Shown here piece after piece: positions 3,556 to 56,021 of a DNA stretch of 64,000 nucleotides. Numbering within the stretch: the stretch's first letter is position 1; the number at the start of each line of letters is the position of its first letter. The notes beneath the pieces are model-generated. The model worked only from the letters and a program-made list of their open reading frames with translations. It was not told where the DNA came from and searched no databases. The stretch is from positions 310,001-374,000 of the forward strand of contig CAMCFA010000001.1 of assembly GCA_945873955.1 (NCBI GenBank), given 5' to 3'. A program made the position numbers and the translations under genes. The DNA is from an uncultured Clostridia bacterium (GTDB lineage Bacteria; Bacillota; Clostridia; Oscillospirales; Ruminococcaceae).

Positions 3556-3584
3556 TTGACATAATTACAAAAATAGTGTATAAT
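3556..3584 (+). promoter_or_regulatory. Sigma-A promoter of the CAP-domain gene
   Basis: Consensus TTGACA, 17-nt spacer, TATAAT. Because an in-frame ATG at 3576 overlaps this -10 box, the promoter rules it out as the start and supports the ATG at 3663. Confidence 0.85.
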
Positions 3585-3662
3585 AATGTCGTAATTAGTT
3601 TAAAATCAACAGACAGACCCACTAAAAATCACGGCATTACAACACAGAAACGGAGCAGGAAT

Positions 3663-4604: not shown

Positions 4605-4606
4605 AA

Positions 4607-5083: not shown

Positions 5084-5095
5084 TAACAAAATTCG

Positions 5096-5121
5096 GGCTG
5101 CGCAATCGCAGCCTTATTTTT
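5096..5121 (+). terminator. Rho-independent terminator
   Basis: Stem GGCTGCG/CGCAGCC with CAAT loop, followed by TTATTTTTT, directly after the YkgJ-like gene. Confidence 0.85.
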
Positions 5122-5244
5122 TGCCTAAAAAGTCTGTTCCGGGAAACAAAATATGAAAATGTTAATATAAATAGCATAAATGTAATCGCCGATTGGTGGA
5201 AATCAGCGCAGAAATGTTATATACTTTTTACATGAGGTGACGAA

Positions 5245-6400: not shown

Positions 6401-7164
6401 ACAGGATTCTCGCGTTTTCTTCAAGAAACATAAAGGAGCTTCTGCGCGACCCGCTGAGCTACATATTCTGTCTGGGATTTCCGCTGGTAATGCTGGTAAT
6501 CATGAGCATTGTAAACCAGTCTATTCCCGCGGAAGCTAACATGACGATATTCAACATTGAGAACCTTTCGGCAGGAATCGCTATGTTCGGGCTTTCCTTC
6601 GTAATGCTGTTCACCTGCCTTACGGTATCTAAAGACCGCTCCGGCGCGTTTCTGACCCGGCTTTACGCTTCTCCCATGAGAAGCGCGGATTTCATTGCCG
6701 GTTATATGCTGCCGGTTCTGGTTCTGGCGCTGATACAGCTTGTTATCAGCTTTGCGGCTTCCCTGCTTGCGACGGTCATTCTCGGCGAAAACACCATGAA
6801 CATTGGCGGCGTTCTGCTGGCGATAGTCATGCTGCTGCCCGTGGCGATTTTCTTCATTGCGGCGGGGCTGCTTTTCGGCTCGCTGTTCAATGAGAAGTCC
6901 GCACCGGGGCTGTGCTCTATCATAATCTCGCTTGCCACCATTCTGGGCGGAGTGTTCTTCGATGCAGAGAGCGCAGGCGGTATCATGCTTGACGTCTGCA
7001 ACGCACTGCCGTTCTTCCATGCGGTAAAGGCGGCTCGGCTAGCTGTTGCGTTACAGCTTGAGGATATCGGCGTACATCTGCTTATAACACTGGCGTATGC
7101 CGTGGTATTCTCAGTACTCGCGTCGGTAGTTTTCAGAAGCAAGATGAGGGCTGATCTGGCGTGA
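6397..7164 (+). CDS. ABC-2 type permease
   Basis: 255 residues with six predicted membrane helices and the ABC-2 layout: an N-terminal cytoplasmic segment with SRNIKELLRDPLSYIF, and a distal FFHAVKAARLAV region. GGGAGGTGC precedes the start. Partner of the ATPase whose stop it overlaps. A strong terminator follows at 7181. Confidence 0.93.
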   Translation: MNRILAFSSRNIKELLRDPLSYIFCLGFPLVMLVIMSIVNQSIPAEANMTIFNIENLSAGIAMFGLSFVMLFTCLTVSKDRSGAFLTRLYASPMRSADFIAGYMLPVLVLALIQLVISFAASLLATVILGENTMNIGGVLLAIVMLLPVAIFFIAAGLLFGSLFNEKSAPGLCSIIISLATILGGVFFDAESAGGIMLDVCNALPFFHAVKAARLAVALQLEDIGVHLLITLAYAVVFSVLASVVFRSKMRADLA

Positions 7165-11771: not shown

Positions 11772-12250
11772 TTCTTCACTGATACTATCTTCATCTGTAT
11801 CTCCCCGGCGCTGGAAAGCATTATCACGCCGTAGGTCGGGTCGTTGTGATTCCGCGGGCTGTCAAGGCTGCCGGGATTCATCACGAACACATCGTCTACC
11901 ATTTCCGTGCGGTAAAGGTGTGTATGTCCGTACAGCGCAATTTTGCAGTCCTCCGCCTTTGCCGCGGAGACCAGCCGCGAAAGACCGCTGTGTACGTCCT
12001 CGTTGTGACCGTGGCAGCAGTATATCTTGTACCCGCTGGCGGTGACTATCTGCTTCTGCTTGTGCATACCGTAATCGCAGTTTCCGCAGACATATATCAT
12101 AGGCTTTGCCGGGTGGAGATTATGCACGTCCCGTGCTTCGTTCTCGCCATCGCCGAGGTGGATTATAAGGTCAGCGTCAAGATTGTTGTTCACTACCTCG
12201 TCAAGAACTGCGAAATTTCGGTGTGTGTCAGATACTACTAATATCTTCAA
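11768..12250 (-). CDS. Metallophosphoesterase (YfcE/MJ0936 family)
   Basis: 160 residues with the calcineurin-like metal sites in order: SDTHRN, HLGDGEN, GNCD, CCHGH and YGHTH. Proteins of this family are small Mn-dependent phosphodiesterases. TTG start at 12250 with AAAGGA 10 nt upstream. First gene of an operon with birA and the CYTH protein; physiological substrate unknown. Confidence 0.92.
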   Translation of the reverse strand: MKILVVSDTHRNFAVLDEVVNNNLDADLIIHLGDGENEARDVHNLHPAKPMIYVCGNCDYGMHKQKQIVTASGYKIYCCHGHNEDVHSGLSRLVSAAKAEDCKIALYGHTHLYRTEMVDDVFVMNPGSLDSPRNHNDPTYGVIMLSSAGEIQMKIVSVKK

Positions 12251-12408
12251 GTGTGGGTTATCCTTTCCTGTTCATATAGGTTTTTTACAGGTTCTACCTA
12301 AATATATTATATCATAAAATTCAAATGAATAAAAGGGGGCTTTTCAGTTTTTTAACAAAAAAATCATATTTCATTCCACTTTTTGTAATTTTTAAGGAGG
12401 TTTCAGCT

Positions 12409-12645
12409 ATGACAAACAACGATTTTGACAAACTGATAAAGTCCGCAAGCGAAAAGCTGGGGTCTTCGCCGGACGATCTGCGGCGTTCTATCGAAAAGAA
12501 AGACATCTCCGCGCTGTCGGCGATGATGTCGAAGTCCGACAAGGAAAAGCTGCGGAAGGTACTCGCCGACAAAGAACTCATGGCGAAGCTGAAATCCGCC
12601 AGCTCGCCGGAGGAGGTCCTCAAAATGCTGGGCGGCATGAAATAA
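12409..12645 (+). CDS. Small conserved-looking protein, unknown function
   Basis: 78 residues, highly charged and probably helical (DKLIKSASEKLGSSPDDLRRSIEKKD, described here only by its first part; LRKVLADKELMAKLK). No signal peptide or membrane segment. AAGGAGG lies 8 nt before the ATG, which excludes the longer upstream frame. First of three closely spaced small genes (27-nt and 22-nt gaps) that look like one operon. I do not recognise the family. Confidence 0.8.
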   Translation: MTNNDFDKLIKSASEKLGSSPDDLRRSIEKKDISALSAMMSKSDKEKLRKVLADKELMAKLKSASSPEEVLKMLGGMK

Positions 12646-15809: not shown

Positions 15810-16610
15810 ATGAAACACAGAATTCTAGCCGCTTTCACGGCGGCGGCAGCGCTGGCGGGAACGCTTATCCTGCCGGGCTGCACCTTTACAAGCTCCAACT
15901 ACAATGCAATGCAGGACTACGATTTCTCCAGCATTGAGCTTATCCAGTTGGAAAGCCCGCAGGACGGCGACACTATCGCGATTTTTGATACCGATCTTGG
16001 TGAGTTCCGGGCGGTGCTGTACGACGAATACTGCCCCAACACGGTGGCGAAGTTTATCGAGCGCGCCGAAGCCGGACAGTACAATGATCTGCCGGTTTAT
16101 GCGGTAGTTCAGGACACCTACTTCCTCACCGGAGGTCATGAAAACGACAAGGGCGTTTACACCGGAAGAAACGACGATACCGAAGCGTTGGAGCACGAAT
16201 ACAACGTGAATCTCTGGCCGTTCCGGGGAGCGCTCATCACCTACTCAGAGCTTCCGGGATATTCCGACGCGCGGTATATCGTATGCAACACAGACCACAC
16301 CATGACGCATGAGCAGATCGACGAGCTTAAGGACTCCATGATGAGCAGCGACAAGCGCACCGACGTGGAAAAGGCGAACCTCAACAACCTGTTTGACAAG
16401 TTTATCGAGGTCGGCGGCGTTTTCGGCATGTCCGGGTCGGTGACGGTGTTCGGGCAGACCTACGAGGGGCTGGACGTTGTTGAGAAGATCAGCAGCATTC
16501 AGTCGGACGAAAAGACCTACCGCCCGCTTGACACCGTAATGGTGAAGTCGGTGACGATCTCCACCTACGACAGCAGCGAAGCGGAAACTGCCGGTACAGA
16601 GGAACAGTAA
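15810..16610 (+). CDS. Lipoprotein, degenerate cyclophilin-like (PPIase fold)
   Basis: 266 residues: signal peptide with lipobox ILPG-C, then a cyclophilin-like domain (DTDLGEFRAVLYDEYCPNTVAKF). It lines up with the two following paralogues, but the segment that should read HRVI-xx-FMxQGG is VYAVVQDTYFLTGG, so the catalytic Arg is missing, and the SQFFI segment is DARYIVC, so the Gln is missing too. Prolyl isomerase activity is doubtful; it may bind substrate only. Ends with VFGQTYEGLDVVEKI, a conserved cyclophilin strand. Confidence 0.85.
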   Translation: MKHRILAAFTAAAALAGTLILPGCTFTSSNYNAMQDYDFSSIELIQLESPQDGDTIAIFDTDLGEFRAVLYDEYCPNTVAKFIERAEAGQYNDLPVYAVVQDTYFLTGGHENDKGVYTGRNDDTEALEHEYNVNLWPFRGALITYSELPGYSDARYIVCNTDHTMTHEQIDELKDSMMSSDKRTDVEKANLNNLFDKFIEVGGVFGMSGSVTVFGQTYEGLDVVEKISSIQSDEKTYRPLDTVMVKSVTISTYDSSEAETAGTEEQ

Positions 16611-16625
16611 GAGAAAGGGATAACA

Positions 16626-17573
16626 ATGAGGATCAGAAAGATAATCACAGCATTGGTCGCTGCTGCGCTCTGCGCGTCAAGCCTTACGGCATGCAGCAGT
16701 TCAAATTCCAATTCGTCCGGCGCTTCAACAAGCGAAGAGTCAAAAGACGAAAGCTCAAGCACCTCGGCGGCGGAAATGGTCAAAAACGCCCCCGCTACCG
16801 GCGGAAACGTCGGAGATGTGACGATACAGACCGGAGATATTGTAGCTGAATTTGAGATAGAGGGCTTCGGCATTATCAAGGCGAAGCTGTTCCCGGACAT
16901 TGCTCCGATAGGCGTGCAGAACTTTGTTCAGCTTGCGCAGGACGGCTATTTTGACGGCAAGAATATCCACCGTGTTATTGCGGACTTCATGCTTCAAGGC
17001 GGCTCTGCAAACGGCGACGGTACAGGCGGCAGCGCCGCTTACTCGGGAGAGGGCAGCAGCGCTGAATATTTCGGCACTGAGGTAAACGAAAACGCGCGGC
17101 ACTTCTACGGTGCGCTGTGCTACGCGAACTCCATGGGCAGGAACTCCACGCAGTTCTATATCGTCAACAGCAAGGAGCCGCAGGATATCTCCGAGGTAAA
17201 GCCCGAAAACGTTGAGGATACTGCCGAAATGGCTAAGTCCTACAAGGAAGCATGTGAGCCGGGTTCGGTGGAATACAGCTACTATGAAAATATGGAAAAG
17301 CAGTACAGGAATCTTGCTGAAATGCTGCGTAACTCTACCGACGAGGTAGTGGAAAAATACAAGCAGGGCGGCACTTATTTCCTTGACGGCGGCTACACCG
17401 TATTCGGACAAGTCGTTGAAGGCTTTGACGTGATAGACAGCATTTCCGCTGTGGAAGTCAAGGACAACGGCAACGGGGAGGAAAGCAAGCCTGTAAAGGA
17501 CATCATCATCAAGTCGGTCAAGGTTTACACTGCTGATTCATTGTCAACACTTCTGGATAATTTCTTACAATGA
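16626..17573 (+). CDS. Lipoprotein peptidyl-prolyl cis-trans isomerase (cyclophilin)
   Basis: 315 residues: lipobox SLTA-C, a Ser-rich linker, then a cyclophilin domain with the active-site string HRVIADFMLQGG and STQFYIV, so the catalytic Arg, Phe and Gln are all present. A roughly 60-residue insertion sits between the STQFYIV strand and the YTVFGQVVEGFDVIDSI strand. Anchored on the outer face of the membrane, it should help fold secreted proteins. Best-preserved member of the tandem trio; AGAAAGGGAT precedes the ATG. Confidence 0.93.
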   Translation: MRIRKIITALVAAALCASSLTACSSSNSNSSGASTSEESKDESSSTSAAEMVKNAPATGGNVGDVTIQTGDIVAEFEIEGFGIIKAKLFPDIAPIGVQNFVQLAQDGYFDGKNIHRVIADFMLQGGSANGDGTGGSAAYSGEGSSAEYFGTEVNENARHFYGALCYANSMGRNSTQFYIVNSKEPQDISEVKPENVEDTAEMAKSYKEACEPGSVEYSYYENMEKQYRNLAEMLRNSTDEVVEKYKQGGTYFLDGGYTVFGQVVEGFDVIDSISAVEVKDNGNGEESKPVKDIIIKSVKVYTADSLSTLLDNFLQ

Positions 17574-17591
17574 CGGGAAAGGAATGACACC

Positions 17592-18611
17592 ATGAACTTA
17601 AAGCGTATTCTTATGAGCGCGGCGCTGACTGTCGGCGTGTTTCTGTCGGCGGCGGGCTGCTCCGGCGGAACGGCGTCCTCCTCCGGCAACGTTGAGGACA
17701 TCACCTTTGCGGACGGCGACAAGATCGCCGTGATCGAAATCAAGGATTACGGAACGGTCAAGGCAAAGCTATTCCCGGATATCGCGCCGGTGGGCGTTGA
17801 GAACTTTATTGAGCTTGCGGAGCAGGGCTACTACGACGGCTTGAAGATCCACCGGGTAATTACCGACTCCGTGATACAGGGAGGTTCCCTCAACGGTGAC
17901 GGAACAGGCGGCACAGCCGCTTACGCAGGCGAGGAGGAAGCCAAGAAAGAGAATCCCGCGTCCAGCTTCCCGATAGAGGTCAGCGAAAAAGCGCGGCACT
18001 TCTATGGTGCGCTGTGCTACGCTGCGGATAACTATGGAAACTGCGCCGCGCAGTTCTATATTGTTAACAGCAAGACCCCGCAGGATCTCACCAAGATTGA
18101 CGCCGCAAAGGTGCAGGCTAAGGCGGACGAGCTTGCCGCAGCAGCCGCTGCCGCCACATGGGAGGCGGATTCCAGCGCAGCGAAAAACAACAGCTACCTC
18201 CAGACCTATTACAGCAACCACGCGTCGATACTCGGCTCAAAGGATCAGGCGGCTGTTGATAAGTACGCAAAAGTCGGCGGCGTTCATCAGTTCGACGGAA
18301 TGGACACGGTTTTCGGGCAGGTTTTCGAGGGCTTTGACGTGATAGACAGTATTTCCACAGTTGAGGTAGAAACCAACGCCTATGGTGAGAAGTCCATGCC
18401 GGTAAAGGACATCATAATTTCCTCTGTGACGATAGAAACCTACAAGGCAAGCACCGCCGAAGTCACAGCAGAAGCGACCTCCGGCAAGGACAGCAAGACA
18501 GAAAGCCAGCCGGGAAGCGGCTCTACTGTTCAGGCAACGGCAGATTCAGCCTCCGCTGCAAGCCAGACCGCGGAAGCTCTGTCAACTATCGATACTAAGG
18601 AAACCGCATAA
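17592..18611 (+). CDS. Lipoprotein peptidyl-prolyl isomerase (cyclophilin), partly altered active site
   Basis: 339 residues: lipobox SAAG-C, cyclophilin domain with HRVITDSVIQGG (catalytic Arg kept; the usual FM is SV) and AAQFYIV (Gln kept), the same long insertion as its neighbour, and a Ser/Thr/Ala-rich C-terminal tail of about 60 residues that looks disordered. AAAGGA precedes the ATG. Third in the tandem array, 18 bp after the second; the array ends at the terminator at 18635. Confidence 0.92.
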   Translation: MNLKRILMSAALTVGVFLSAAGCSGGTASSSGNVEDITFADGDKIAVIEIKDYGTVKAKLFPDIAPVGVENFIELAEQGYYDGLKIHRVITDSVIQGGSLNGDGTGGTAAYAGEEEAKKENPASSFPIEVSEKARHFYGALCYAADNYGNCAAQFYIVNSKTPQDLTKIDAAKVQAKADELAAAAAAATWEADSSAAKNNSYLQTYYSNHASILGSKDQAAVDKYAKVGGVHQFDGMDTVFGQVFEGFDVIDSISTVEVETNAYGEKSMPVKDIIISSVTIETYKASTAEVTAEATSGKDSKTESQPGSGSTVQATADSASAASQTAEALSTIDTKETA

Positions 18612-35203: not shown

Positions 35204-35232
35204 AGCCGCCCCTTAATTTGGGGCGGCTTTTT
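35204..35232 (+). terminator. Rho-independent terminator of aspS
   Basis: Nine-pair stem AGCCGCCCC/GGGGCGGCT, loop TTAATTT, then TTTT. The same stem may also stop the converging kinase operon, although its minus-strand tail is less T-rich. Confidence 0.85.
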
Positions 35233-35245
35233 GGCATGTTAAGCA

Positions 35246-35959
35246 TTATACCCGTGCAATAACCACGCTCATATCGTCCTCTGAGCCGGCGGCAAGTGCG
35301 CGGCTTATTATCTCCCGACAGGCGGCGATATCGCTTTCGGCGGCGGAGATGATACCCTCCAGCATATCGATATCAAGGAAGTCATGCACCCCGTCAGAGG
35401 TCATCAGCAGACCGCCGCCGGAAAGATCCGATATCTGCGGTCGGAACAGGCTGGAAGTGCCGCCCCCGAAGCAGGCGGTGATCTCACTGCGGCTGCACTG
35501 CTCTGCCTCCTGCGTCCTGCCAAGCGACATGTAGTAATTATAGCTTGTCATGTCGCTTGTCAACTGTTTTAGATACCCGCCTTGTATTGCATACACCCTT
35601 GTATTACCGATATGAAGCAGCTTTCCGGGCTGATTTTCGCAGAGGAACACCCCGGAATAGGTCGCCGCCATTTTCTCCTTTCCGGGAGTATTCTTCGCAA
35701 GCGCCAGCAAACCGCTGTTTATCTCTGATATCTCATCTTGCAGATTTTCGCAGTTGCAGAGCGAAAGCCGCTCGCAGACATACTGCGCCGCGATATCTCC
35801 CCCGGCGTTGCCGCCTACCCCGTCGGAAATCCCCAGCGCGAAGGGCGGCTCAATGTCGCAGCACAGCTCCTCACAGCAGAGGATATTCCCGCCGACAAGA
35901 ATCCTGTCGTCGCTGGCGGATTTGTCGCAGCCGCAGCGGGTCGCCGCACTTATCTTCAT
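35246..35959 (-). CDS. PP2C-family serine/threonine protein phosphatase
   Basis: 237 residues with metal-coordinating motifs in order: GISDGVGGNAGGDIAA, GNTRVYAI, LTSDMTSYN, MTSDGVHDF and the terminal GSEDDMSVVIAR. An N-terminal Cys/Asp stretch (CGCDKSASDD) precedes the core. It removes phosphate from Ser/Thr in a Mn/Mg-dependent way and should reverse the kinase encoded eight genes upstream. Last gene of the signalling operon, 4 bp after the AAA+ gene; AGAGGAAG precedes the ATG. Confidence 0.93.
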   Translation of the reverse strand: MKISAATRCGCDKSASDDRILVGGNILCCEELCCDIEPPFALGISDGVGGNAGGDIAAQYVCERLSLCNCENLQDEISEINSGLLALAKNTPGKEKMAATYSGVFLCENQPGKLLHIGNTRVYAIQGGYLKQLTSDMTSYNYYMSLGRTQEAEQCSRSEITACFGGGTSSLFRPQISDLSGGGLLMTSDGVHDFLDIDMLEGIISAAESDIAACREIISRALAAGSEDDMSVVIARV

Positions 35960-35963
35960 ATTA

Positions 35964-37844
35964 TCACTTCCTCTGACAGTTCAGCGCTGCCGGCATGGAA
36001 TCCGGGTCTATTGCTATAATTTCAAGATCAGCGTCTGAAAAGATACCATTGTCGAACAAGTACCGCGAAAGCGGGTTTATCAGCAGATTCTCCACGATAT
36101 TGCCGATACCGCGTCCGCCGTTTGAGAGATTCCCCAGCGCCTTTTCCAGCAGCGTGGAATACGCCGCATCCGAAAGAGTGACGTTTATCTGCTTGTCCGC
36201 GGCAAGGCTTGACAGTATGCGGTCTACCTGCGAACGCAGTATCTGCCGCGCCGCTTCCGGTCTGATGAAATCAAAAACCACGATATTCTCGCCGATACGG
36301 TTCAGTATCTCCGGGCGTCCCAGTTCAAGCTTGAAGTAGTCCTCAATCGCGCCGCGGACTCTCTGCTGTACCTCCGGGTAGGGCATTTCGGCGGTGACGT
36401 TCTGCACTCTGCCGCCGTCCGGGGTGCGGGTGTAGATTCCAAGATTGCTGGTGAATATTATCACGCACTCGCTGAAATACACCGTGTTGCCTTGCCCGTC
36501 GGTCATTCTACCGTCCTCCAGAATTTGCAGGAACTTATCCAGCACTGACGGGTGCGCCTTTTCTATCTCGTCGAAAAGCAGTATAGAAAAGGGATTGTTC
36601 CTCACGGCGTTGGTGAGCTGACCTCCCGCCTCATAGCCGACATATCCGGGGGGCGCGCCAAGCAGCTTCTGGTCGCTGTGGCTTTGGCTGTATTCGCTCA
36701 TGTCGAAGCGTATGCAGCAGCGCTCGTCCCCGAAAAGCCGCTCCGCAAGGGTCTTGGCGGTTTCGGTCTTACCCGTTCCGGTGGGACCTGCGAAAAACAG
36801 CACGCCTTTAGGTCTGGTGTGGGACGACCCTTGAAGCCCCGACATTCCCGTGACTGCACGTTTCACCACGTCAAGGGTCTTTGTTATGGCGAATTCCTGC
36901 CCCTTGACCCGCCGCCGGAAATCCTCACCGGCGTTGCGCAGCGAATCTACGTCCAGCTCCCGCCACGGGTTCTCTTTTATACCGTACTTGTAGAGGTCTA
37001 TCACGTCACACATGTTCCGTATGGAAATGCGCTCGTTCTTGCAGAGCTTGCGCAGTCCGTTCATCTCGGTGAAGCTGAAACCCTCGGTCAGCGCCGCGAA
37101 GCGCTCCTGTATCTTTTCCAGCTCCGCCGGGTGCTCGGTGAAATACGGCATTTCACTGCGGAAGATATCTCCGGCGAAAAAGGTCGCGAAGTTATCCCCG
37201 CGGACAAAACCGGCGCGTTCCTCCTTTGTGGGCGTGGAAATTGTAATTGTTTTCTGGTTCGGGTTGTCAAGATAGAACCACGCCGGGATATCGTTGGATT
37301 TGTTCACGATAAGCACCAGCAGATTCCGCAGCTTGCCGCCCGCAGCTTCGGTGCGGACTTCCGCCGCCTCCATTGAAGTCTGAAGCAGCGTGGTGTAGCT
37401 GTCCACCTCAGACTGCTGCAAGTGGTCGGGGGAAACTATATACCGGGACGCGAAATTCATCACGATAACGCAGGACTGTTTGTTCTGGCTGAGAGTGTTC
37501 CTCACAAGCTGCACTGCCCCGCCAGCGTTGTTCCCTTTGAACGCCGCGGGAACTGCCCCGTCGGTCACGCTCACCCCTGCCAGCTTCGCGAATGCTTCAA
37601 GGTAGCCCTCCTCGCAGGGGTTAGAGAATCCCCGAAGGCTGTCGTAGAACGTGATGACCTCGTACCCCATGTCCTTGAAGAAGTAGTGAAGATAGTCCGT
37701 CAGCCGCAGAATGCTCCCCTTGGGGATACTGCCCTCGCTGGGGTACTGATAGCTGTCGTATATGTTTCCCTCCAACATGATGAGGGGCTTAATCCTGCTG
37801 AATATCGAAAGCTCGCGATGCCACTTGGGGATATATTCGCTCAT
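35964..37844 (-). CDS. ClpB-like AAA+ ATPase with degenerate N-terminal ATPase-like domain
   Basis: 626 residues. Residues 310-620 form an HSP100 D2-type AAA+ module: Walker A GPTGTGKTE (353-361), pore loop GYVGY (400-404), Walker B ILLFDEIEKAHP (421-432), sensor IIFTSNLG and a C-terminal small domain. Residues 1-290 look like a decayed AAA domain: LIMLEGNIYDSY, a Walker-B-like CVIVMNFASR and sensor-like LVLIVNKSND, but no Walker A. No ClpP-binding [VIL]GF loop follows the sensor, so it probably remodels proteins without a protease. AAAGGAG precedes the ATG. The operon context points to phosphorylation-controlled disassembly or assembly. Confidence 0.9.
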   Translation of the reverse strand: MSEYIPKWHRELSIFSRIKPLIMLEGNIYDSYQYPSEGSIPKGSILRLTDYLHYFFKDMGYEVITFYDSLRGFSNPCEEGYLEAFAKLAGVSVTDGAVPAAFKGNNAGGAVQLVRNTLSQNKQSCVIVMNFASRYIVSPDHLQQSEVDSYTTLLQTSMEAAEVRTEAAGGKLRNLLVLIVNKSNDIPAWFYLDNPNQKTITISTPTKEERAGFVRGDNFATFFAGDIFRSEMPYFTEHPAELEKIQERFAALTEGFSFTEMNGLRKLCKNERISIRNMCDVIDLYKYGIKENPWRELDVDSLRNAGEDFRRRVKGQEFAITKTLDVVKRAVTGMSGLQGSSHTRPKGVLFFAGPTGTGKTETAKTLAERLFGDERCCIRFDMSEYSQSHSDQKLLGAPPGYVGYEAGGQLTNAVRNNPFSILLFDEIEKAHPSVLDKFLQILEDGRMTDGQGNTVYFSECVIIFTSNLGIYTRTPDGGRVQNVTAEMPYPEVQQRVRGAIEDYFKLELGRPEILNRIGENIVVFDFIRPEAARQILRSQVDRILSSLAADKQINVTLSDAAYSTLLEKALGNLSNGGRGIGNIVENLLINPLSRYLFDNGIFSDADLEIIAIDPDSMPAALNCQRK

Positions 37845-37856
37845 TCTTATCTCCTT

Positions 37857-38951
37857 TTACACACCCGGGAACTCCGACAAATGCCGGCAGGGTATCCCGT
37901 TTTCAAGGCAGTACTTCTGCGCCATGCTGTCCGGCAGGCAGTATACCACCACGCTCTTCGCGCCGGAGGACTTCACCATGATACCGCACAGGTCAACAAG
38001 CTCGGTGTTCATGCCGAGGACTGCCACCGCACGGCTCTTGCTGAGGAAAAAGTCGCTGAACGGGCTGATTATCTGCTGGGTGTACTCCGGCACAACCAGC
38101 CGTTCCAGCCTTGAACACTCCACGAACGCGTTGTTCTCAATGGTCAGCAGCGTGTCCGGCAGAACTACCTTAGTGAGCCGACCACACCAGCCGAAGCACT
38201 TCTCCGGAAGCACTGTGATACGGGTGTTTTCAAGGTGTACCTCTGTGAAGATACAGCTTGCAAACGCGCCTGCGCCGATAGTCATAAGGCTGTCCGGGAA
38301 CGAAATCGTACTCAGCGTGCAGGCGCTGAAAGAGTTCTTCCCTATCATGTAGAGGTGCTCCGGCAGTATCAGACGTTTCAGCTTGGTGCTGCGGAACGCG
38401 CCGTCGCCTATTCTTGTGACGGTGCAGCCGTCGATAACGTCCGGAATCTCCAGCACCTCCGGGATCTCCACCTCGCCGTCAAAGGAATGGTGAGTGTTGA
38501 ACCCGGTGATAGTCACCTCGTCGTTTTCCACCCGGTAGGAAAGGTATTTCAGCGCAGTTTCGTACCGATTGTCCGGCTGCTTTGACTGCCACTTGTCCAG
38601 CGCCTCTGCAATGCGGGTGTTTGTGGCTAGCATGCTCTTTTCCCTGGACTCCTTGACAGCTTCGTCTATGCGGGAATCCAGCGCCTGCTGCTCCGCGCGG
38701 ACATTATCGGCGGACTTTCGCTGCTCGTCTAAATCGAATTTCTCGCTGTCCGAAACGGAATTCAGAAATGCCGCTGCTTTCAGCAGCCGCTCTTGACTGG
38801 CAAGATACGCGCTCATCTGCTGTGAGGACTGAATGTCCTTCAGGGTGCAGAGCGTTTCGGTAAGTATCTCTATCTTCTTCTCCGCCGCGTCCAGACGCTG
38901 GTGCAGCGACTCTATCTCTATCCGCTGTTTGAGTTCTTCAAGCTCGGTCAT
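37857..38951 (-). CDS. Coiled-coil / leucine-rich-repeat (BspA type) protein
   Basis: 364 residues. Residues 1-130 form a long coiled coil (LEELKQRIEIESLHQRLDAA, LDEQRKSADNVRAEQQALDS). Residues about 150-340 are five or six LRR_5 repeats (VTRIGDGAFRSTKLKRLILP, MTIGAGAFASCIFTEVHLEN, LTIENNAFVECSRLERLVVP). No signal peptide, unlike most BspA-type proteins, so it is cytoplasmic and probably a binding scaffold or recognition module. ATGA overlap with the preceding small gene. Confidence 0.88.
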   Translation of the reverse strand: MTELEELKQRIEIESLHQRLDAAEKKIEILTETLCTLKDIQSSQQMSAYLASQERLLKAAAFLNSVSDSEKFDLDEQRKSADNVRAEQQALDSRIDEAVKESREKSMLATNTRIAEALDKWQSKQPDNRYETALKYLSYRVENDEVTITGFNTHHSFDGEVEIPEVLEIPDVIDGCTVTRIGDGAFRSTKLKRLILPEHLYMIGKNSFSACTLSTISFPDSLMTIGAGAFASCIFTEVHLENTRITVLPEKCFGWCGRLTKVVLPDTLLTIENNAFVECSRLERLVVPEYTQQIISPFSDFFLSKSRAVAVLGMNTELVDLCGIMVKSSGAKSVVVYCLPDSMAQKYCLENGIPCRHLSEFPGV

Positions 38952-39391
38952 CTATCCTTGTCCTCTCTCATCATAAGGCTTATCGTCTGTGCAATGCCGC
39001 TCACCGCCGCGCGTTTCGCCGTGTCGGAGTTTACCCTGCCGCTCCGCGCAGCCTGTTCCGCCGCCGAACGCAGAACGTTCCCGCTAAGTTGTTTCATGAA
39101 ATCGGTCAGTTCTTTTGCTTCGGCGGACGGCTCCTGCTTCTCCGGCTGGGGTCGCGATCCGGTTTCGGGCTTTTTCGGCTCCGGCTTGTTCTCCGGTGTG
39201 AAGCTCGGCAGCTCCTCGCAGCCGCAGACGCTGTAAAGCAGCTCCGACAGCCGCAGCAGACTGCTCCTGCGTTTCACGCAGGACTGTATCTCACCGGGAT
39301 AGGGCAGCTTTTCCACGCGGCGCAGCGTTTCGCTCAGCAGCGCAAGCCTGATGTACGCAATATCGCGCTGCGCTGTATCACTGCTGTTCAT
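38948..39391 (-). CDS. Small operon protein, unknown function
   Basis: 147 residues: a helical N-terminus (DIAYIRLALLSETLRRVEKL), a Cys-containing middle (ELLYSVCGCEELP), a Pro/Glu/Lys-rich linker (PENKPEPKKPETGSRPQPEK) and a helical C-terminus. No recognisable domain. ATG at 39391, 8 nt after AAAGGCGG; it overlaps the radical-SAM gene by 14 bp and the LRR gene by 4 bp, so translation is coupled on both sides. A connector role inside the system is inference. Confidence 0.78.
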   Translation of the reverse strand: MNSSDTAQRDIAYIRLALLSETLRRVEKLPYPGEIQSCVKRRSSLLRLSELLYSVCGCEELPSFTPENKPEPKKPETGSRPQPEKQEPSAEAKELTDFMKQLSGNVLRSAAEQAARSGRVNSDTAKRAAVSGIAQTISLMMREDKDR

Positions 39392-40013
39392 CGCTGTCAC
39401 CGCCTTTCAGCAGACTTTTCTCCGCCAGCCGCCGTTCAAGCTGCTGCGGGTAGTCTGCGCTGTGTATTCCCACCGAAATAACGCTGTTTCCGGCGGTGAA
39501 ATTCTGTATCGCGTTCCCGCGGCGCATATATTCCTCATAAGCGCCGCGAAAGCTCTCGTCAAGGAATATCACCTGCTGGTTATCTGAACCCCGCAGCGGG
39601 CAGCCGTTGTTGCGCTCCTCGACATAAAGCCCGTCGATAAGCACCGCCGCGCTTTGCAGTATCTCCTCCACGCAGTTGGAGTTCATCTCCCGAAGCTGCG
39701 CCAGCGTGTATCCGGTGTAAATAAGTATATCGTGTGAGATAGTTCTCAGCTCCGGCAGGAGCTTCGCAAGCTCCTCCGGCTGCTCCATAGGGTCGCCGCC
39801 GGTTATCGTGAAGCCGTCCACCCGCCTGCTGTCTGAAATGGAACGCACCAGCTTCAGCAGGTTTTCCACGGAAATATCGTACTCCTTCCGGGGCTGCCAC
39901 AATTCGGGGTTGCTGCACCCTTTGCACCCGTGTGAGCAGCCGCACAGCCACAGTCCTATCCTCTCGCCGGGGCCAAGCGTCCTTACCGGGTACAATATCC
40001 GGGCTAAGTTCAT
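39378..40013 (-). CDS. NrdG-like radical-SAM single-cluster protein
   Basis: 211 residues. It has the radical-SAM cluster motif CSHGCKGC within LWLCGCSHGCKGCSNPELW, the SAM-binding GGDPMEQPEEL and ILIYTGYTLAQL, as in anaerobic ribonucleotide reductase activases. No NrdD or other glycyl-radical enzyme is nearby, so classic activase duty is unlikely here. C-terminal 60 residues are atypical (SADYPQQLERRLAEKSLL). ATG at 40013 overlaps the FHA gene stop (ATGA). Presence in a kinase/FHA operon is unexpected. Confidence 0.88.
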   Translation of the reverse strand: MNLARILYPVRTLGPGERIGLWLCGCSHGCKGCSNPELWQPRKEYDISVENLLKLVRSISDSRRVDGFTITGGDPMEQPEELAKLLPELRTISHDILIYTGYTLAQLREMNSNCVEEILQSAAVLIDGLYVEERNNGCPLRGSDNQQVIFLDESFRGAYEEYMRRGNAIQNFTAGNSVISVGIHSADYPQQLERRLAEKSLLKGGDSDEQQ

Positions 40014-40597
40014 GGGCATATCCTCACGGTGAAATAGGCTGCGCCCTCCTGCCGTGTACCCTCCGCGGAGTTGCCGCCAAGCCCTATCTCGTCGCCGTCG
40101 TGCAGCTCCTGCCGGCATGAAATGCGGAGGTTATTCACATAGGTGAAGTTTGTAGTACTAAGGTTCGTGATGTAAAGCCGCCCGTTTTCCGCAGTGAGCC
40201 TTGCGTGGGTGCGGCTCACATACGGCTTTGCGGAAAGGTACTCGCGCATTTCCTGCTCCCTGCCGACGTCGGTTTCCGGCTGGGTCAGCTCGTATGCGTA
40301 CTCGCCGTCAAGGGAAGCCAGCGTGAAATGCGGAGCGCTCTCCGGGACGTCCTCACTGGGGATAATATCTGAAATGTCCTCGCCGCAGACCGCGCATTTC
40401 CGCATTGCGGCGGGATTCCTCGCGCCGCAGCCGCACACCCGCACAAACGCTCTTGGCGCGGAGGTATCAGCGGGCTTTGTCGAGGTATTTTCGTCCACCA
40501 CCGGGGTGGAAGTGAGGTCAGCCTCGCACTGTGAACACTCTATCCGGCTGGGCGGATTGTGAAAGCCGCAGTCCGGGCATATTCTGTATTTACTCAT
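40010..40597 (-). CDS. Double zinc-ribbon plus FHA domain protein
   Basis: 195 residues. Two zinc ribbons: CPDCGFHNPPSRIECSQC (residues 7-24) and CGCGARNPAAMRKCAVC (about 55-71). Then a forkhead-associated domain (about 95-193) with VSRTHARLTAENGRLYITNL and the TNFTYVNN...DGDEIGLGG strands, including the SRTHA phosphothreonine-binding core. It should read phospho-Thr made by the operon kinase, whose N-terminal TxxNPALS repeats are candidate ligands. It overlaps neighbours on both sides. Confidence 0.93.
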   Translation of the reverse strand: MSKYRICPDCGFHNPPSRIECSQCEADLTSTPVVDENTSTKPADTSAPRAFVRVCGCGARNPAAMRKCAVCGEDISDIIPSEDVPESAPHFTLASLDGEYAYELTQPETDVGREQEMREYLSAKPYVSRTHARLTAENGRLYITNLSTTNFTYVNNLRISCRQELHDGDEIGLGGNSAEGTRQEGAAYFTVRICP

Positions 40598-41882
40598 CTG
40601 CGCTCAATTCCTTTGGTGCGGAGTTCTGCCGCTGATCCTCTGTGAAGTCAGCAAGGGTGACGTCCTCCGTTAAGTCGTAGTCGGAAACGTTGATTATCTG
40701 CGCGTATGCGGTGTCCGGGGGCAGCAGCGAAATATGCTCCGACTCAATTCCCTTTTCAAGCAGCCGCCGCTCGAACTCTCTGAATCTGCCGCAGAAGCTG
40801 CGCATATCCTCGGCAAGGCGGTCAGCTTCCGTCGGTTCGGGAACCCTGTCCCTATCGCCAAGACCGCCAAGCTCCATTGTGATATTTCCACTCGCGGAAT
40901 AGGTCACGTTTACCGCCGTCCCCTCGCTGAAGGAATACAGCTCGTTGCGGAACGCAGCGCCGCTTTTCTTCACCACGGAACGGTTTCCTATGAGCCGGTA
41001 GCCCATGTCCTCCATTACCTCGTCTATGCAGCGGGAAATGTAATCCTGCTCGTCGCTGCGGGCGGTTTGCGCTTCAAGCTCCGCGATAAGCTGACTAAGC
41101 CGCGCCGGGGCGCTCCTGCTGAACGGAACTCCCTGCGGCGCTTCTCCGCGTTCCTCGCAGAGCGCGTGATACCTCGCAAGCAGCCTGTCGTACTCCGCGC
41201 CGCATTCACGGCGAAGCTCCGAATAGCTGCGGCACTCCTTTTCCAGCCTTGCCACCGTCATGGAGCTGAAATTGTGCAGGAAATCCTCGCTGTCTATCTC
41301 GGACAGCTTCTTTTGAGCCTTTGCGATATCCTGCCGCAGCTCGTTGCTAAGCTCTGCCGCCGGTATCTCAGCAAGCCTGCCGGAAAGCTCCAGCTTCATG
41401 TCACGCAGGCGCTTCTGCACCGGGGTCATGATCTGGCTGAAATCAGCGCCGGAGAGCCTGTCAAGGCTGTCGCTAATGTCCTGCCGCAGCGCCTTGATGT
41501 TTCGCACGGATATACCCTCCAACTCGCCGCAGAGCTTCACTGCCTCGTCAAGGGACTTCTGCGCTTCAGATACCGCGCGCTCCAACTTATCCGGCGTTTC
41601 GTTCCTGCCGAGAGCCGACAGGTTTTTCAGAGCCGCGGCGGTCTTTTCCTCCAGCTTTTTGAGCTTTGCCGAATAGCCGCCGTCTTCGCCGGTGCGCTCC
41701 ATGAGCGCCTTAGCCTGATCCGCCGCAGAGTCCGGCAGCTTTGTCACGGAATTCAGCTTAGCGGTAAGGTGTACGATATGCGCCCTCGCCTCGCCTATCC
41801 TGCGCTCCCGCTCACGCTGGGCGATCAGCGCACGGCGCTGCGCCGGGGTCAGTCTGTATTCTGATGTCTTTGGTCCGCTCAT
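40590..41882 (-). CDS. Long coiled-coil protein, unknown function
   Basis: 430 residues, strongly helical with heptad-like stretches (LKKLEEKTAAALKNLSAL, RLRDMKLELSGRLAEIPA, ARLEKECRSYSELRRECG). A more globular C-terminal part (from about 290: DEVMEDMGYRLIGNRSVVKK, TYSASGNITMELGG) looks like a small alpha/beta domain. No signal peptide or membrane segment. ATG at 41882 follows GGAGG by 6 nt. It overlaps the FHA gene by 8 bp. Possibly the structural or substrate component of the system. Confidence 0.82.
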   Translation of the reverse strand: MSGPKTSEYRLTPAQRRALIAQRERERRIGEARAHIVHLTAKLNSVTKLPDSAADQAKALMERTGEDGGYSAKLKKLEEKTAAALKNLSALGRNETPDKLERAVSEAQKSLDEAVKLCGELEGISVRNIKALRQDISDSLDRLSGADFSQIMTPVQKRLRDMKLELSGRLAEIPAAELSNELRQDIAKAQKKLSEIDSEDFLHNFSSMTVARLEKECRSYSELRRECGAEYDRLLARYHALCEERGEAPQGVPFSRSAPARLSQLIAELEAQTARSDEQDYISRCIDEVMEDMGYRLIGNRSVVKKSGAAFRNELYSFSEGTAVNVTYSASGNITMELGGLGDRDRVPEPTEADRLAEDMRSFCGRFREFERRLLEKGIESEHISLLPPDTAYAQIINVSDYDLTEDVTLADFTEDQRQNSAPKELSADE

Positions 41883-41928
41883 TGCTATCCTCCGTTCCAT
41901 TTTATTGCCATGTCACGCTATCACGCTT

Positions 41929-43596
41929 TCACGCGTTCTGCGATCTCCAGTTTTCCACCTCGCTGCGCTTTCCAAGCGAATTCAGCCACGCTTCAAACTG
42001 CACGTCAAGCTCGCCGTCCGGGCTTATTATCTTCCCGCAGAACCGCTCGAACTCCCGGAAATCCTCCGCCAGCAGCGACTTCATGTACCGCACCAGCTCG
42101 TCCGGCGAAGCGAAGCTCCTGTCCTCCACCCGAAGCAGCTTATCCCCGGACAGCGCGAAGCCGACGGTGTACCGCGCAAGCTGCACGGTGCGTTCGTCCT
42201 GCTCGCCGTATTTTACCATGTCCTCAAGGCTGCGCGCAGCCTCCGAAAGAGCCTTGTCGCCGGGGCAGGCGCTCTGCACATAAGCGGAAATGAGCTTTTT
42301 TGACAGCACCTCGCTTACGAACTCATCGGCGGTGTTGCCGCTGTTCATGCTGTCCAGAACGTAATTTCCAAGCTCCGATATGCTCTCGAATCGTCTGCCC
42401 TTCCAGCAGAACGCCTTTGTTTCCGGGTCAAGGCGGTATATCAGCTTGAAGAACGCAAGATCCGCGTCAGCGCCGCCGGACACCTCGTCCTCCGCGTCAA
42501 GGGCGTACCCGGCAAGCTCCGGGTCGTATGGCTTCAAAAAGCCCGACAGAATGCCTCTGAACACCTGCTTCTTGCCCTGCTCCCAGTTCAGCGTGAACTC
42601 CGTCACGACCTCGTGCAGGCTGGAAAGCCGCCGGTTCATGAACGTGTAAACCGGGAACGAACGCTGCGCCGGCTCTGCGCCCTCGCCGGGTATCGGCTGA
42701 ATGATCCCGCTGCACCAGTTTTCCACCTCCGCGTAGGTCCAGCGCCGGTTTGGGTTGGATTTCTTGCGGCGGTTGGTTATGTCAAAATATGTAAGCGCTG
42801 AAATGAGGTCTTTCAGCGGCTTCGGCATGTTGTCCGGCAGCGGTATGCGCTGGATCGCCGTGTACCGCGCGATCTCCTCCGCGGACATGTCGGTGTAGGG
42901 AGTTTTCCCGCAGAACAGCTCGTACAGCGTTATTCCGAAGGAGTAGTAGTCCGACTCCTCCAGAAACAGCTTTCTGAAGGTTTCCGGCGCGGAGTACTCC
43001 GGGGTCATGCCGGTGCTGGTGACTACCACGGTGCTGCCGCTGCTCTGCACAGAGCTTATGCCGAAGTCGATTATCGCGATATCGCCGCTGTCCGTCAGCA
43101 TGATGTTGGAGGGCTTTAAGTCCTTGTGGATTATACCCACGTCGTGAAGCGCCGCCAGTGCTTCGTTTATCTCCGGGATTATGCGGTCTTTCAGCTCCTC
43201 AAAGCTGAACCGTCTACCCTGCAAGGAGCCGTTGCGGTAGTACGGCAGTATCTCATACGGCAGCCCGCGGAACACGTCCGACTGATACAGCGGCGCGACG
43301 TAGGGGCAGCGCACTTCCTGCAAGGCGGCGATTACCTCGCTTTTCACGGCGATAGGACGTCGGTACAGCTTCGCCGCGAACTCCTCGCCGTCACGTTCGC
43401 AGATGTATATATCCGCCTCGCCGGCGGGCGCGGACAGCCGCTGCTTTATCACATATCCGCCGGGAAGCTCCGTACCCGGTGATATCACGGCAGCCGCCGA
43501 CAGCGCGGGATTCACCGTGGTCTGACTGCCGGAAAGGGCGGGATTTATTTCCGTTGCATTGCTCACGGCAGGGTTTATCCGTGTTTCTTCGCTCAT
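41929..43596 (-). CDS. Serine/threonine protein kinase with N-terminal TxxNPALS repeats
   Basis: 555 residues. The first 35 residues hold three repeats: TRINPAVS, TEINPALS, TTVNPALS. A Hanks-type kinase domain follows (about 43-300): AAKLYRR lysine, HKDLKPSNIML catalytic loop, IDFGISS, GMTPEYSAPE and YSFGITLYELFCG. The glycine loop is weak. No transmembrane helix, so unlike PknB/PrkC it is soluble. The C-terminal 255 residues are unrecognised. ATG at 43596 is 5 nt after GGAGG. First gene of the operon and the expected input of the circuit. Confidence 0.94.
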   Translation of the reverse strand: MSEETRINPAVSNATEINPALSGSQTTVNPALSAAAVISPGTELPGGYVIKQRLSAPAGEADIYICERDGEEFAAKLYRRPIAVKSEVIAALQEVRCPYVAPLYQSDVFRGLPYEILPYYRNGSLQGRRFSFEELKDRIIPEINEALAALHDVGIIHKDLKPSNIMLTDSGDIAIIDFGISSVQSSGSTVVVTSTGMTPEYSAPETFRKLFLEESDYYSFGITLYELFCGKTPYTDMSAEEIARYTAIQRIPLPDNMPKPLKDLISALTYFDITNRRKKSNPNRRWTYAEVENWCSGIIQPIPGEGAEPAQRSFPVYTFMNRRLSSLHEVVTEFTLNWEQGKKQVFRGILSGFLKPYDPELAGYALDAEDEVSGGADADLAFFKLIYRLDPETKAFCWKGRRFESISELGNYVLDSMNSGNTADEFVSEVLSKKLISAYVQSACPGDKALSEAARSLEDMVKYGEQDERTVQLARYTVGFALSGDKLLRVEDRSFASPDELVRYMKSLLAEDFREFERFCGKIISPDGELDVQFEAWLNSLGKRSEVENWRSQNA

Positions 43597-43630
43597 GACC
43601 GCCTCCTGCATTGTATTTTACTTCATAATA

Positions 43631-43659
43631 ATTATACCATAACCCGGTAAATTTTTCAA
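43631..43659 (-). promoter_or_regulatory. Sigma-A promoter of the kinase-phosphatase operon
   Basis: Minus strand TTGAAA, 17-nt spacer, TATAAT, 35 nt before the kinase start. No other promoter or terminator is apparent until after 35246. Confidence 0.82.
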
Positions 43660-53578: not shown

Positions 53579-55939
53579 TTACTGGGTAGATAAAATTTTG
53601 ACCGAAAGGCCGCCCAGTTCCTCGCAGACTTCGGCGCGGCTGCCGCTTTTCAACTCCCCGGAGATCATCATGCGGGACAGCATGTCCTCTATCTCCGCGG
53701 TGATAGTCCTGCGGAGCGGACGCGCGCCCATGCTACGCTCCCGGCTGTCACGGCAGAGGCGCTTCACTGCGCCGTCGGTGAAGGTCAGCGATATCCCGCA
53801 CTGCTCTGCCCTGCCGGACAACTTTCCAAGAAGAATGCGGCATATCGCTTCAAGCTGCGGTTCGCCGAGCTTGCGGAATACGATCACGTTGTCGATTCGG
53901 TTGATAAGCTCCGGGCTGAACTGCTTTTTAAGGGAGCTCATCACGTCAGCTTCGCCGCTGTCCTGCTGACATCCACCGAAGCCGAGGGCGTTCTTTGAAA
54001 GCTGCTCCGCGCCGATATTGCCGGTCATGATCACGATAGCGCTGCGAAAATCCGCGCGCTTGCCGTCCGCAGCGGTGAGCGTCCCCTCTTCAAGGATCTG
54101 GAGCAGCAGGTTCAGCACGTCCGGGTGAGCCTTCTCCACCTCGTCGAACAGCACCACGGAATACGGCGCACTGCGAACCCGCTTTATGAGCTGCCCCTCC
54201 TCCTCAAAGCCGACATATCCGGGGGGCGAACCTATCAGCTTAGAAACCGAATGTTTCTCCATGAACTCGGACATATCGAACCGTATCATACGCCTCTCGT
54301 CCCCGAAAACCGCCTCCGCGAGCGCTTTGGCAAGCTCCGTCTTGCCCACGCCGGTCTGTCCGAGGAACAGGAACGAACAGGTGGGGCGGTTCGGCTCTTT
54401 CAGTCCTGTCCTGCCGCGGCGGACGGCGTTTGCCACAAGCTCTACCGCGTTATCCTGCCCTACCACCCGCTTTTTTAGCTGCTCCTCCAGCCCGGAGAGC
54501 CGCGCGGCTTCGTCCTCTGAAAGCCGCTGTACCGGTATCCCGGTGATCGTGGACGCCGCCTGCGCGATATCCGACTTATCCACCACCCTGCCGCCGGAAT
54601 TGAACGTATTCAGCAGGGAGAATTCCTCCGCGCGCAGCCGCTCTGCTTCCGCGGAGCTTTTCGCCGTCTTTATCTCCCGGCGCACCTCCGCAAGACGTTT
54701 CACGCAGCCGCCATTGTCCGTCCCGGATCGCACCCGCGCCGCCGCCTCGTCCACCAGATCGAGTGCCTTGTCCGGCAGGCGGCGGTCTGTGATATACCGC
54801 ACGGACAGTCGCACTGCCTCCTCCAGCGCACCGTCGGTGATAGTCACCCGGTGGTGCTGCTCGTAGCTGCCCCTCATTCCTTTGAGGATAGCTAGCGTCT
54901 GGCTTTCGGTGGGCTGCTCAACCGTTATCGGCTGAAACCTGCGTTCCAGCGCACTGTCCTTTTCGATGAATTTGCGGTATTCCTCGGTGGTGGTTGCGCC
55001 GATAAGACATATCTCGCCCCGGGCAAGCTGGGGTTTCAGAATATTCGCCGCGTCGATAGCGCCCTCTGCGGCGCCTGTGCCTACGATACTGTGCAGCTCG
55101 TCAATGAAAAGGATAACGTTCTTGCAGGAGGCGGCTTCCTCAATCACGCTTTTCAGACGTTCCTCGAAATCACCGCGGTATTTCGCCCCGGCAAGCATGG
55201 AGGTCAGATCAAGAGCGAAAATCCTCTTGCCCAGCAGCCCCTGCGGAACGGCGCCCGCCGCAACCCGCTGTGCGAAGCCCTCCACCACAGCGGTCTTGCC
55301 GACTCCTGCGTCCCCGACTAGGCAGGGGTTATTCTTACAGCGACGGAGAAGCACCCGGATTAGCCGGTCGGTCTCCTGCTCCCTGCCGATCACCGGGTCC
55401 AGCTTTCCGGCAAGGGCAAGCTCTGTCAGATCCCTGCCGTACTTCGTCAATGCCGGGAACTTCGCGCGGCGATCTTTTTCGCTCTGCTGGAATTCCGGCT
55501 CAACGTAGCGCTGCACGCAGATCTCCCCGGACAGCTTCACCGGGTCTACGCCGTACTCCGCAAGTATCTGCCAGCCGTAGCTGTCCTTATCCGTGACTAT
55601 CGCCCGAAGAAGCTGCTCCGTACCTGCCTTGCGGAGGTTCTCCCCCGCCGCAAAGGAGAGCGCGTTCTCCATAAGGCGGCGGCTGCGCGGGGTTAGGTCG
55701 TTGAAGGTCAGCCGGGTGGGCTTCCCCTTGCCTACAAGAGTTTCCAGCCGCCGCAGCACTTCGTTCCTGCCAACGCCGTATTTTTTCAGAAACACCGCCG
55801 ACGGAAAGCTGTCGTCGGAGGTCAGACCGTACAGGATATGCTCGCTGCCGACGTATGTGTGACCTAAACCCATAGCCGCCCCCAGGGCAGCATTAAGCGC
55901 CTTGACAGCGCTGTCGGAAAAACCGCTGATCGAATTCAT
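53579..55939 (-). CDS. clpC: ClpC-like AAA+ unfoldase
   Basis: 786 residues. Clp N-domain repeats (about 1-145), D1 with GDAGVGKTA and LFIDELHSIVGTG, a shortened middle domain, and D2 with GQTGVGKTE, pore loop GYVGF and VVLFDEVEKAHP. An LGF tripeptide in NALGFGG sits where the ClpP-docking loop is expected, so it likely feeds ClpP. ATG at 55939, 8 nt after GGAGG; the ATG at 55945 is too close. It is distinct from the AAA+ at 35964, which has only one active ring and no docking tripeptide. Confidence 0.94.
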   Translation of the reverse strand: MNSISGFSDSAVKALNAALGAAMGLGHTYVGSEHILYGLTSDDSFPSAVFLKKYGVGRNEVLRRLETLVGKGKPTRLTFNDLTPRSRRLMENALSFAAGENLRKAGTEQLLRAIVTDKDSYGWQILAEYGVDPVKLSGEICVQRYVEPEFQQSEKDRRAKFPALTKYGRDLTELALAGKLDPVIGREQETDRLIRVLLRRCKNNPCLVGDAGVGKTAVVEGFAQRVAAGAVPQGLLGKRIFALDLTSMLAGAKYRGDFEERLKSVIEEAASCKNVILFIDELHSIVGTGAAEGAIDAANILKPQLARGEICLIGATTTEEYRKFIEKDSALERRFQPITVEQPTESQTLAILKGMRGSYEQHHRVTITDGALEEAVRLSVRYITDRRLPDKALDLVDEAAARVRSGTDNGGCVKRLAEVRREIKTAKSSAEAERLRAEEFSLLNTFNSGGRVVDKSDIAQAASTITGIPVQRLSEDEAARLSGLEEQLKKRVVGQDNAVELVANAVRRGRTGLKEPNRPTCSFLFLGQTGVGKTELAKALAEAVFGDERRMIRFDMSEFMEKHSVSKLIGSPPGYVGFEEEGQLIKRVRSAPYSVVLFDEVEKAHPDVLNLLLQILEEGTLTAADGKRADFRSAIVIMTGNIGAEQLSKNALGFGGCQQDSGEADVMSSLKKQFSPELINRIDNVIVFRKLGEPQLEAICRILLGKLSGRAEQCGISLTFTDGAVKRLCRDSRERSMGARPLRRTITAEIEDMLSRMMISGELKSGSRAEVCEELGGLSVKILSTQ

Positions 55940-56021
55940 GTTCATGCCCTCCTTGATCGTTCTGTCCCTAGTATGAACAGAATTTTGGAAAATATTTCAG
56001 CGGAAGGCAAAATAATCAATC

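Follow-up and report, generated by a model that had tools for sequence, protein, structure and literature searches.

The described systems that come closest to the locus reported here are the helicase-based Mokosh systems, the DUF4011–helicase–Vsr anti-phage proteins Hhe and ProA, the TerY-P triad, KKP, the FtsH ternary vWA-MoxR conflict systems and the Hsp100 ATPases ClpB, ClpC and ClpA. Hhe and TerY-P were reportedly validated in a 2020 screen. In KKP, a Ser/Thr kinase and a PP2C phosphatase control a phage-related response; the excerpted text describes two kinases and names no AAA+ or radical S-adenosylmethionine (radical-SAM) gene (PMC11341870). The FtsH ternary systems comprise vWA, MoxR and FtsH-type components and a radical-SAM enzyme predicted to modify a peptide effector (PMC7159879). 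Mokosh is reported from Asgard archaea (PMC11291487). We compared these systems with an eight-gene operon in a 64,000-nucleotide stretch of DNA (hereafter the window; contig CAMCFA010000001.1, positions 310,001 to 374,000) from an uncultured Clostridia bacterium of the Ruminococcaceae. The operon encodes a Ser/Thr kinase, an FHA protein and a PP2C phosphatase together with a core of three proteins, namely an Hsp100-like AAA+ ATPase, a radical-SAM enzyme and a coiled-coil protein.

With TerY-P and KKP the operon shares the combination of kinase and PP2C. It differs from TerY-P in that none of its eight proteins has a VWA match in Pfam (a first, sequence-only reading of the window had noted that a TerY vWA is missing), and in that it adds AAA+, radical-SAM, FHA and coiled-coil proteins; unlike KKP, it contains a single kinase. 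The pairing of an AAA+ system with a radical-SAM enzyme recalls the FtsH ternary systems, but vWA, MoxR and FtsH-type components are missing from the listed Pfam matches of the eight proteins. The kinase matched MkoA of Mokosh at 73.9 bits over the kinase domain only, whereas the operon lacks an MkoA helicase and none of its eight proteins matched MkoB at E 0.1. Mokosh is not known to us to include the AAA+/radical-SAM/coiled-coil trio. Neither the trio nor the operon is named by any PADLOC, NCBIfam or Pfam model, although genes nearby in relatives do match models of known or candidate defence systems. No description was found in the literature searched, which agrees with the earlier statement that no described system of this composition was known. 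Since each of the named systems tested differed from the operon in a defining feature, we regard the eight-gene set as new, while a description elsewhere in the literature is possible.

The conserved ATPase, radical-SAM and coiled-coil trio

The AAA+ ATPase (626 amino acids; 35964–37844, minus strand, like all genes of the operon) matched the ClpB-type Pfam family AAA_2 (7.6e-48). Residues 3–626 of its AlphaFold2 model (pLDDT 79.5) aligned to both ATPase domains of ClpB, ClpC and ClpA, so that two AAA+ domains are predicted, the first of them within the full-length model and not as a domain folded alone. The second domain is intact and ClpB-like, with Walker A and B and the GYVG pore motif, and in all 32 AAA+ members Walker A occurs as a single copy in this domain. 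The ClpB-like assignment of the sequence-only reading was thus borne out, while the two-domain build with a first domain devoid of Walker A had been missed. In contrast to ClpB, ClpC and ClpA, the protein has neither this first-domain Walker A nor a Pfam match to Clp_N. No [ILV]G[FL] ClpP-docking tripeptide was found within the AAA+ region read, and the ATPase should therefore thread or remodel protein and not feed ClpP. An ordinary two-ring Hsp100 with a Clp_N domain is encoded separately in the window (53579–55945).

The radical-SAM enzyme (39378–40013) is a minimal, NrdG-like protein that matched Pfam Fer4_12 (3.8e-29) and carries CX3CX2C and GGDP. Judged by its CX3CX2C motif, it is a member of the radical-SAM superfamily; CX3CX2C and GG[DE]P were kept in 19 of 19 aligned members. 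At locus L088 the corresponding gene is split over two open reading frames (ORFs; 11806–12475). The coiled-coil protein (40590–41882; 436 amino acids as listed) starts with MSGPK and belongs to no Pfam, NCBIfam or PADLOC family; relatives were found at L084, L085, L086, L102, L103 and L105.

Using profiles built in this analysis, we searched for the core genes at 32 loci, which comprised those from a genome search with the AAA+ protein, 13 plasmid records and loci from the window's class and genus. The genome search covered the best 80 of at least 589 matches, nine of which were loci with the AAA+ first domain, and the counts are therefore lower bounds. The plasmid records represented 13 of 20 that matched, the remaining two from Rhizobium and five from Moellerella looking near-identical to those included, and 6 of 391 genomes of the class, the window's own included, contributed loci. 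All three core genes were present at 25 of the 32 loci and the radical-SAM gene at 28, in a set that is partly redundant, since three loci belong to a single subclade of a genus and several are on plasmids of Rhizobium. The trio occurred in Bacillota (Aristaeella), Pseudomonadota and Actinomycetota (L010). By comparison, the remaining 71 Clp-type loci of the genome search yielded one radical-SAM gene and no coiled-coil gene, and at 80 viral-contig loci the radical-SAM gene, the coiled-coil gene and the AAA+ first domain were each found in none, several of the control contigs being short. The conserved core is the trio, and its partners (kinase, FHA, PP2C, LRR and small proteins) differ between lineages. 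The sequence-only reading had recognised neither this division nor the resemblance of partners in relatives to helicase and nuclease proteins of anti-phage systems. A gene-neighbourhood search had been proposed as the check on the sequence-only reading; the genes proved to recur together, and no homologues were placed in a named system.

Some loci depart from the full trio. L101 stops at a contig end. The radical-SAM match of L011 is ~5.5 kb away from the AAA+ gene and that of L090 ~8.7 kb, and at neither locus did the profile detect a coiled-coil gene; on the cyanobacterial plasmid of L090 (550–11947), a DO-GTPase1 gene stands between the radical-SAM and AAA+ genes. Four loci have no radical-SAM gene. 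Three are discussed below, and the fourth is a truncated AAA+ copy of congener G005 (L195, 8494–10017). This copy is adjoined by what was judged by eye to be an insertion-element ORF, with a 554-amino-acid LRR_4 protein ~3 kb further on.

Partner types A, B and C

In type A, the core is joined by an active Ser/Thr kinase, a zinc-ribbon/FHA protein and PP2C. Members are the window, L084, L085, L086, L102, L103, L105 and, in part, L101; PP2C was present at six of seven loci (none was seen in L102), and the gene order is shuffled. Regular expressions recovered the HRD-type and DFG motifs in 8/8 type A kinases and the beta-3 Lys pattern in 6/8, whereas the FHA expression was unmatched in L103 (BLAST match only) and L010 (Pfam FHA match present). 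Accessory genes encode LRR_5 (window, L084, L085), SH3_3 (L103), DUF5050 and DUF4236 (near L102) and DUF6273 (L086) proteins; the DUF4236 proteins lie near two type A operons (L102, 5727–7007; L086, 1–276). Downstream of the PP2C gene of L085, a VWA protein and a calcineurin-like phosphoesterase are encoded (16249–17732), the VWA gene ~1 kb beyond. Directly upstream of the type A operon of L105 are genes (3580–6817) for ClpP, a 252-amino-acid protein of no family and a TraG/VirD4-type coupling protein. On a 44-kb Aristaeella rumen plasmid, a gene for a 2151-amino-acid DUF4011–helicase–MTES_1575 protein overlaps the type A kinase gene by 8 bp. This protein scored 1187 bits against ProA and 806 bits against Hhe, both below the NCBIfam cut-off, and 1308 bits against PDC-S37 of PADLOC. 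Two further loci carry the core: coiled-coil, AAA+ and radical-SAM genes at L007, and the same three with FHA and PP2C up to the contig end at L010.

Type B, found in alpha- and betaproteobacteria (L008, L009, L012, L087, L088, L094, L107–L109), consists of the AAA+ and radical-SAM genes, a gene for a protein of ~2100 amino acids and the coiled-coil gene. The fusion protein scanned (L008) contains kinase, DUF4011, superfamily 1 (SF1) helicase and MTES_1575 restriction endonuclease (REase) domains and in this resembles Hhe/ProA. In eight of nine fusions the kinase motifs were examined with regular expressions (L088 was left out; L012 gave no match), and in seven of the eight S or G stood in place of the Asp of DFG, which marks these domains as pseudokinases. 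The fusion gene of L109 (12473–18728) has internal stops.

Type C (L089, L091, L092, L093, L104, L106, L194) comprises a large helicase, a second protein, a coiled-coil protein, AAA+ and radical SAM. It was found on proteobacterial plasmids and in two genomes of the class to which the window belongs. One of these is a congener (G010), whose complete type C cassette (L194, 7410–17637) lies within the window's genus. The second protein is PIN-type in six of seven loci, as assigned by annotation, Pfam or similarity. Type C shows likeness to Mokosh type I: the four helicases scanned (L091, L104, L106, L194) all scored 320–367 bits against MkoA, and the second proteins of L092, L104 and L194 matched MkoB weakly (E 1.4e-4 to 0.0065). 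On the other hand, no MkoB match was obtained at E 0.01 in L089, L093 and L106 or at 1e-5 in L091, and Pfam showed no kinase domain in the single type C helicase examined with it. PLuB was considered for a type C helicase and rejected (161.5 bits versus 999, helicase core only), and the PLuB_AAA helicase had no match in the window's genome. Types B and C are largely plasmid-borne, several near integrases or transposases.

The coiled-coil proteins are held together unevenly across these types. Outside type C, 16 of 18 members had an [M/V]SGPK N-terminus, the exceptions being MSGFT (L105) and MSGPS (L007); of the seven type C members, none had it. The type B profile matched L007 (3.8e-13) and L010 (8e-17), supporting homology of the type B, L007 and L010 proteins. 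Profile comparison of types A and B gave E 0.008 over the C-terminal domain, that of A and C E 0.0042 over the helix before this domain and the domain's first residues, and that of B and C nothing useful (E 0.16). Homology of the type A proteins to the others is likely, given the shared N-terminus, the position and the weak match, while for type C the assignment rests mainly on position.

The window operon and its distribution

All eight ORFs of the window operon (35246–43611) were confirmed by ORF and family checks in the order given by the sequence-only reading, i.e. kinase, coiled-coil, zinc-ribbon/FHA, radical-SAM, small, coiled-coil/LRR, AAA+ and PP2C genes, and the proposed grouping of a writer, a reader and an eraser of phosphothreonine beside a ClpB-like ATPase was upheld by kinase, FHA, PP2C and AAA_2 matches. 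As read from the sequence after start refinement, gene borders are overlaps of 4–14 bases or gaps of 4–12 bases, except for 46 bases between the kinase and coiled-coil genes. The coiled-coil gene starts at 41882, at the ATG of MSGPK after GGAGG (the listed ORF began at 41900), the radical-SAM gene at 40013, in an ATGA overlap with the FHA stop, and the small gene at 39391. Transcription as a single operon from one promoter, likewise proposed earlier, is supported by a TTGAAA-N17-TATAAT element (43659–43631, minus strand) that agrees with the consensus at 11 of 12 positions, has TG before the −10 box and precedes the genes, and with a terminator-like hairpin after them (35204–35228, minus strand). 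This element was the best of five matches in the scan, for which 3.7 were expected in shuffled sequences at the looser threshold of the scan. Ratios of nonsynonymous to synonymous substitution rates (dN/dS) against congener G004 ranged from 0.075 (AAA+) to 0.236 (small protein), compared with 0.052 (SufBD-like) and 0.227 (GNAT) for two neighbour genes; these values are only rough, since dS was about 1.0–1.4. All eight genes are under purifying selection.

The kinase (41929–43611; 560 amino acids; Pfam Pkinase 5.3e-30) has the beta3 Lys, HKD and DFG. Its N-terminal tail contains three T-x-[IV]-N-P repeats, while T-x-[ILV]-N-[PQ] occurs once elsewhere among the 63 window ORFs of >=100 amino acids (19,584 residues). 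Repeats of this type recur in the kinase tails of L084, L085 and L086. The double zinc-ribbon and FHA protein (40010–40597; 195 amino acids) matched Pfam FHA (1.1e-13) and zinc ribbons and shows the GR and SRTH motifs. The PP2C phosphatase (35246–35959; 237 amino acids) matched the Stp1-type NCBIfam model (2.9e-22) and Pfam (0.0045), both below cut-off, with its DGVGG, TSDG and EDD motifs intact. The coiled-coil and BspA-type LRR protein (37857–38951; 364 amino acids; Pfam LRR_5 9.3e-26) had orthologues only in L084 and L085, and the small protein (38948–39391; 150 amino acids as listed), which belongs to no family, was found in L084 (60% identity) and not in L085. Flank genes scanned were aspS, GNAT, SufBD core, SufC-like ABC, LGT and one of no family.

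Within the genus, the AAA+ first domain was found in 5 of 43 genomes: the window's own, G004 with all eight genes in unchanged order, G012 with seven (without the small gene), G010 with type C and G005 with the truncated copy. Type A thus occurs in three of the 43, own included.

Possible functions and their alternatives

The module is most likely a conflict (anti-mobile-element) system or derived from one, since its core elsewhere sits with helicase or nuclease proteins that have relatives in Mokosh and among the DUF4011 anti-phage proteins of the Hhe/ProA type. The trio of types B and C travels with helicase and nuclease proteins of the anti-phage kind and is largely plasmid-borne, so that, by guilt by association, a conflict role of the whole family appears likely. 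For the window operon a defence role is unproven, and several observations weigh against it or against parts of the wider scheme. No helicase or nuclease gene adjoins the operon, and the window's genome gave no match to DUF4011 (controls positive in 2 of 14) or to AAA_12 (PF13087; controls positive in 9 of 14). Neither family scored above cut-off in any of six other type A genomes (G004, G012, G277, G433, G303, G290), which contained two sub-threshold AAA_12 matches and two of which are only 65% and 85% complete. The operon of L084 lies between the same flanks as that of the window, and with L085 the suf side alone is shared; such shared flanks are unlike a freshly mobile defence island. The PADLOC matches of the window kinase (mad6, PD-T4-6, MkoA) are generic and confined to the kinase domain, and the T-x-I-N-P repeats are absent from the kinases of L102, L103 and L105. 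Homology of the A, B and C coiled-coil proteins is read from weak profile matches (probability 0.4–8%) plus position. Finally, three Clostridia AAA+ relatives of ~60% identity (L004, 5891–7777; L005, 9989–11893; L006, 10001–11899) have neither radical-SAM nor coiled-coil partners and are followed by a ~250-amino-acid protein of no family, those of L005 and L006 being similar by BLAST and that of L004 seen by eye.

With the lack of DUF4011 and AAA_12 and the shared flanks weakening the case for defence, we prefer to view the operon as a remodelling machine that is gated by phosphorylation and whose coiled-coil protein is both its client and the substrate of the radical-SAM enzyme, a proposal to which we give almost, and not quite, an even chance. 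The main client of the AAA+ protein would be its coiled-coil partner, whose near-fixed MSGPK N-terminus could serve as a grip or tag, and the radical-SAM enzyme may introduce a radical-based modification on this or another partner. Kinase, PP2C and FHA reader would turn the assembly on and off, perhaps via autophosphorylation of the T-x-I-N-P tail of the kinase, docking of FHA on this tail being a guess, and the coiled-coil/LRR protein would provide recognition. A broader version, in which the trio is a general-purpose immunity activation engine whose half-dead Hsp100 pulls an MSGPK-tagged coiled-coil protein that the radical-SAM enzyme modifies, with interchangeable outputs, strikes us as rather unlikely as a whole. 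These outputs would be the pseudokinase–DUF4011–helicase–nuclease fusion, a Mokosh-like helicase paired with a protein of the PIN type or, in the window, the active kinase/FHA/PP2C circuit.

The chief rival to the remodelling machine is resident stress or cell-envelope signalling, in which kinase, PP2C and FHA control an Hsp100-like chaperone and LRR_5, SH3_3, DUF5050 and DUF6273 accessories sense the cell state. The sharing of both flanks with L084 and of the suf side with L085, the missing DUF4011/AAA_12 helicases, the sensor-like domains near type A loci and the purifying selection all speak for this explanation, which we hold to be a substantial minority possibility. It accounts poorly for the patchy occurrence of type A in the genus, for the type A operon that adjoins a DUF4011 anti-phage-like gene on a rumen plasmid, for the one that has a gene for a conjugative coupling protein as its neighbour, and for the association of the same core with helicase and nuclease proteins elsewhere. 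That the radical-SAM protein is an NrdG-like activase of a glycyl-radical enzyme, regulated by the rest of the operon, is improbable: NrdG is indeed the nearest NCBIfam model (107.9 bits for the window enzyme, 100.3 for a type C member), but both scores fall below the curated cut-off of 126.1, a gene for a glycyl-radical enzyme was not noticed among annotated or scanned neighbours, though no systematic search for one was made, and the enzyme occurs in loci of Rhizobium, Burkholderia and Streptomyces, which are aerobes. The sequence-only reading had likened the operon to the threonine-phosphorylation module of type VI secretion, while noting the lack of secretion structural genes. Kinase, FHA, PP2C and a Clp-type ATPase do occur together, yet the TssH (ClpV; 217.6 versus 884.95 bits) and TagH (25.1 versus 120.25 bits) matches were far below cut-off and reflect generic domains, and neither the operon nor its scanned flanks contained a type VI structural gene, the rest of the genome not having been searched. 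The likeness therefore did not hold, and we consider a module of a secretion or injection machine very improbable. Chance adjacency of unrelated genes, to which the family-less coiled-coil and small proteins might point, has next to no probability in view of the conserved order and of the recurrent, shuffled co-occurrence seen against controls.

Should the remodelling machine be confirmed, one unfoldase/radical-SAM/coiled-coil core would have been combined several times over, in bacteria far apart from each other, with varying effector or signalling parts, and protein remodelling and radical chemistry would join the bacterial conflict toolkit. The core profiles and the MSGPK start would then provide a handle for finding many more such systems. 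Even if type A were a stress system, it would combine phospho-regulation of an Hsp100-like machine with a radical-SAM enzyme as dedicated partner, and no described case of this is known to us.

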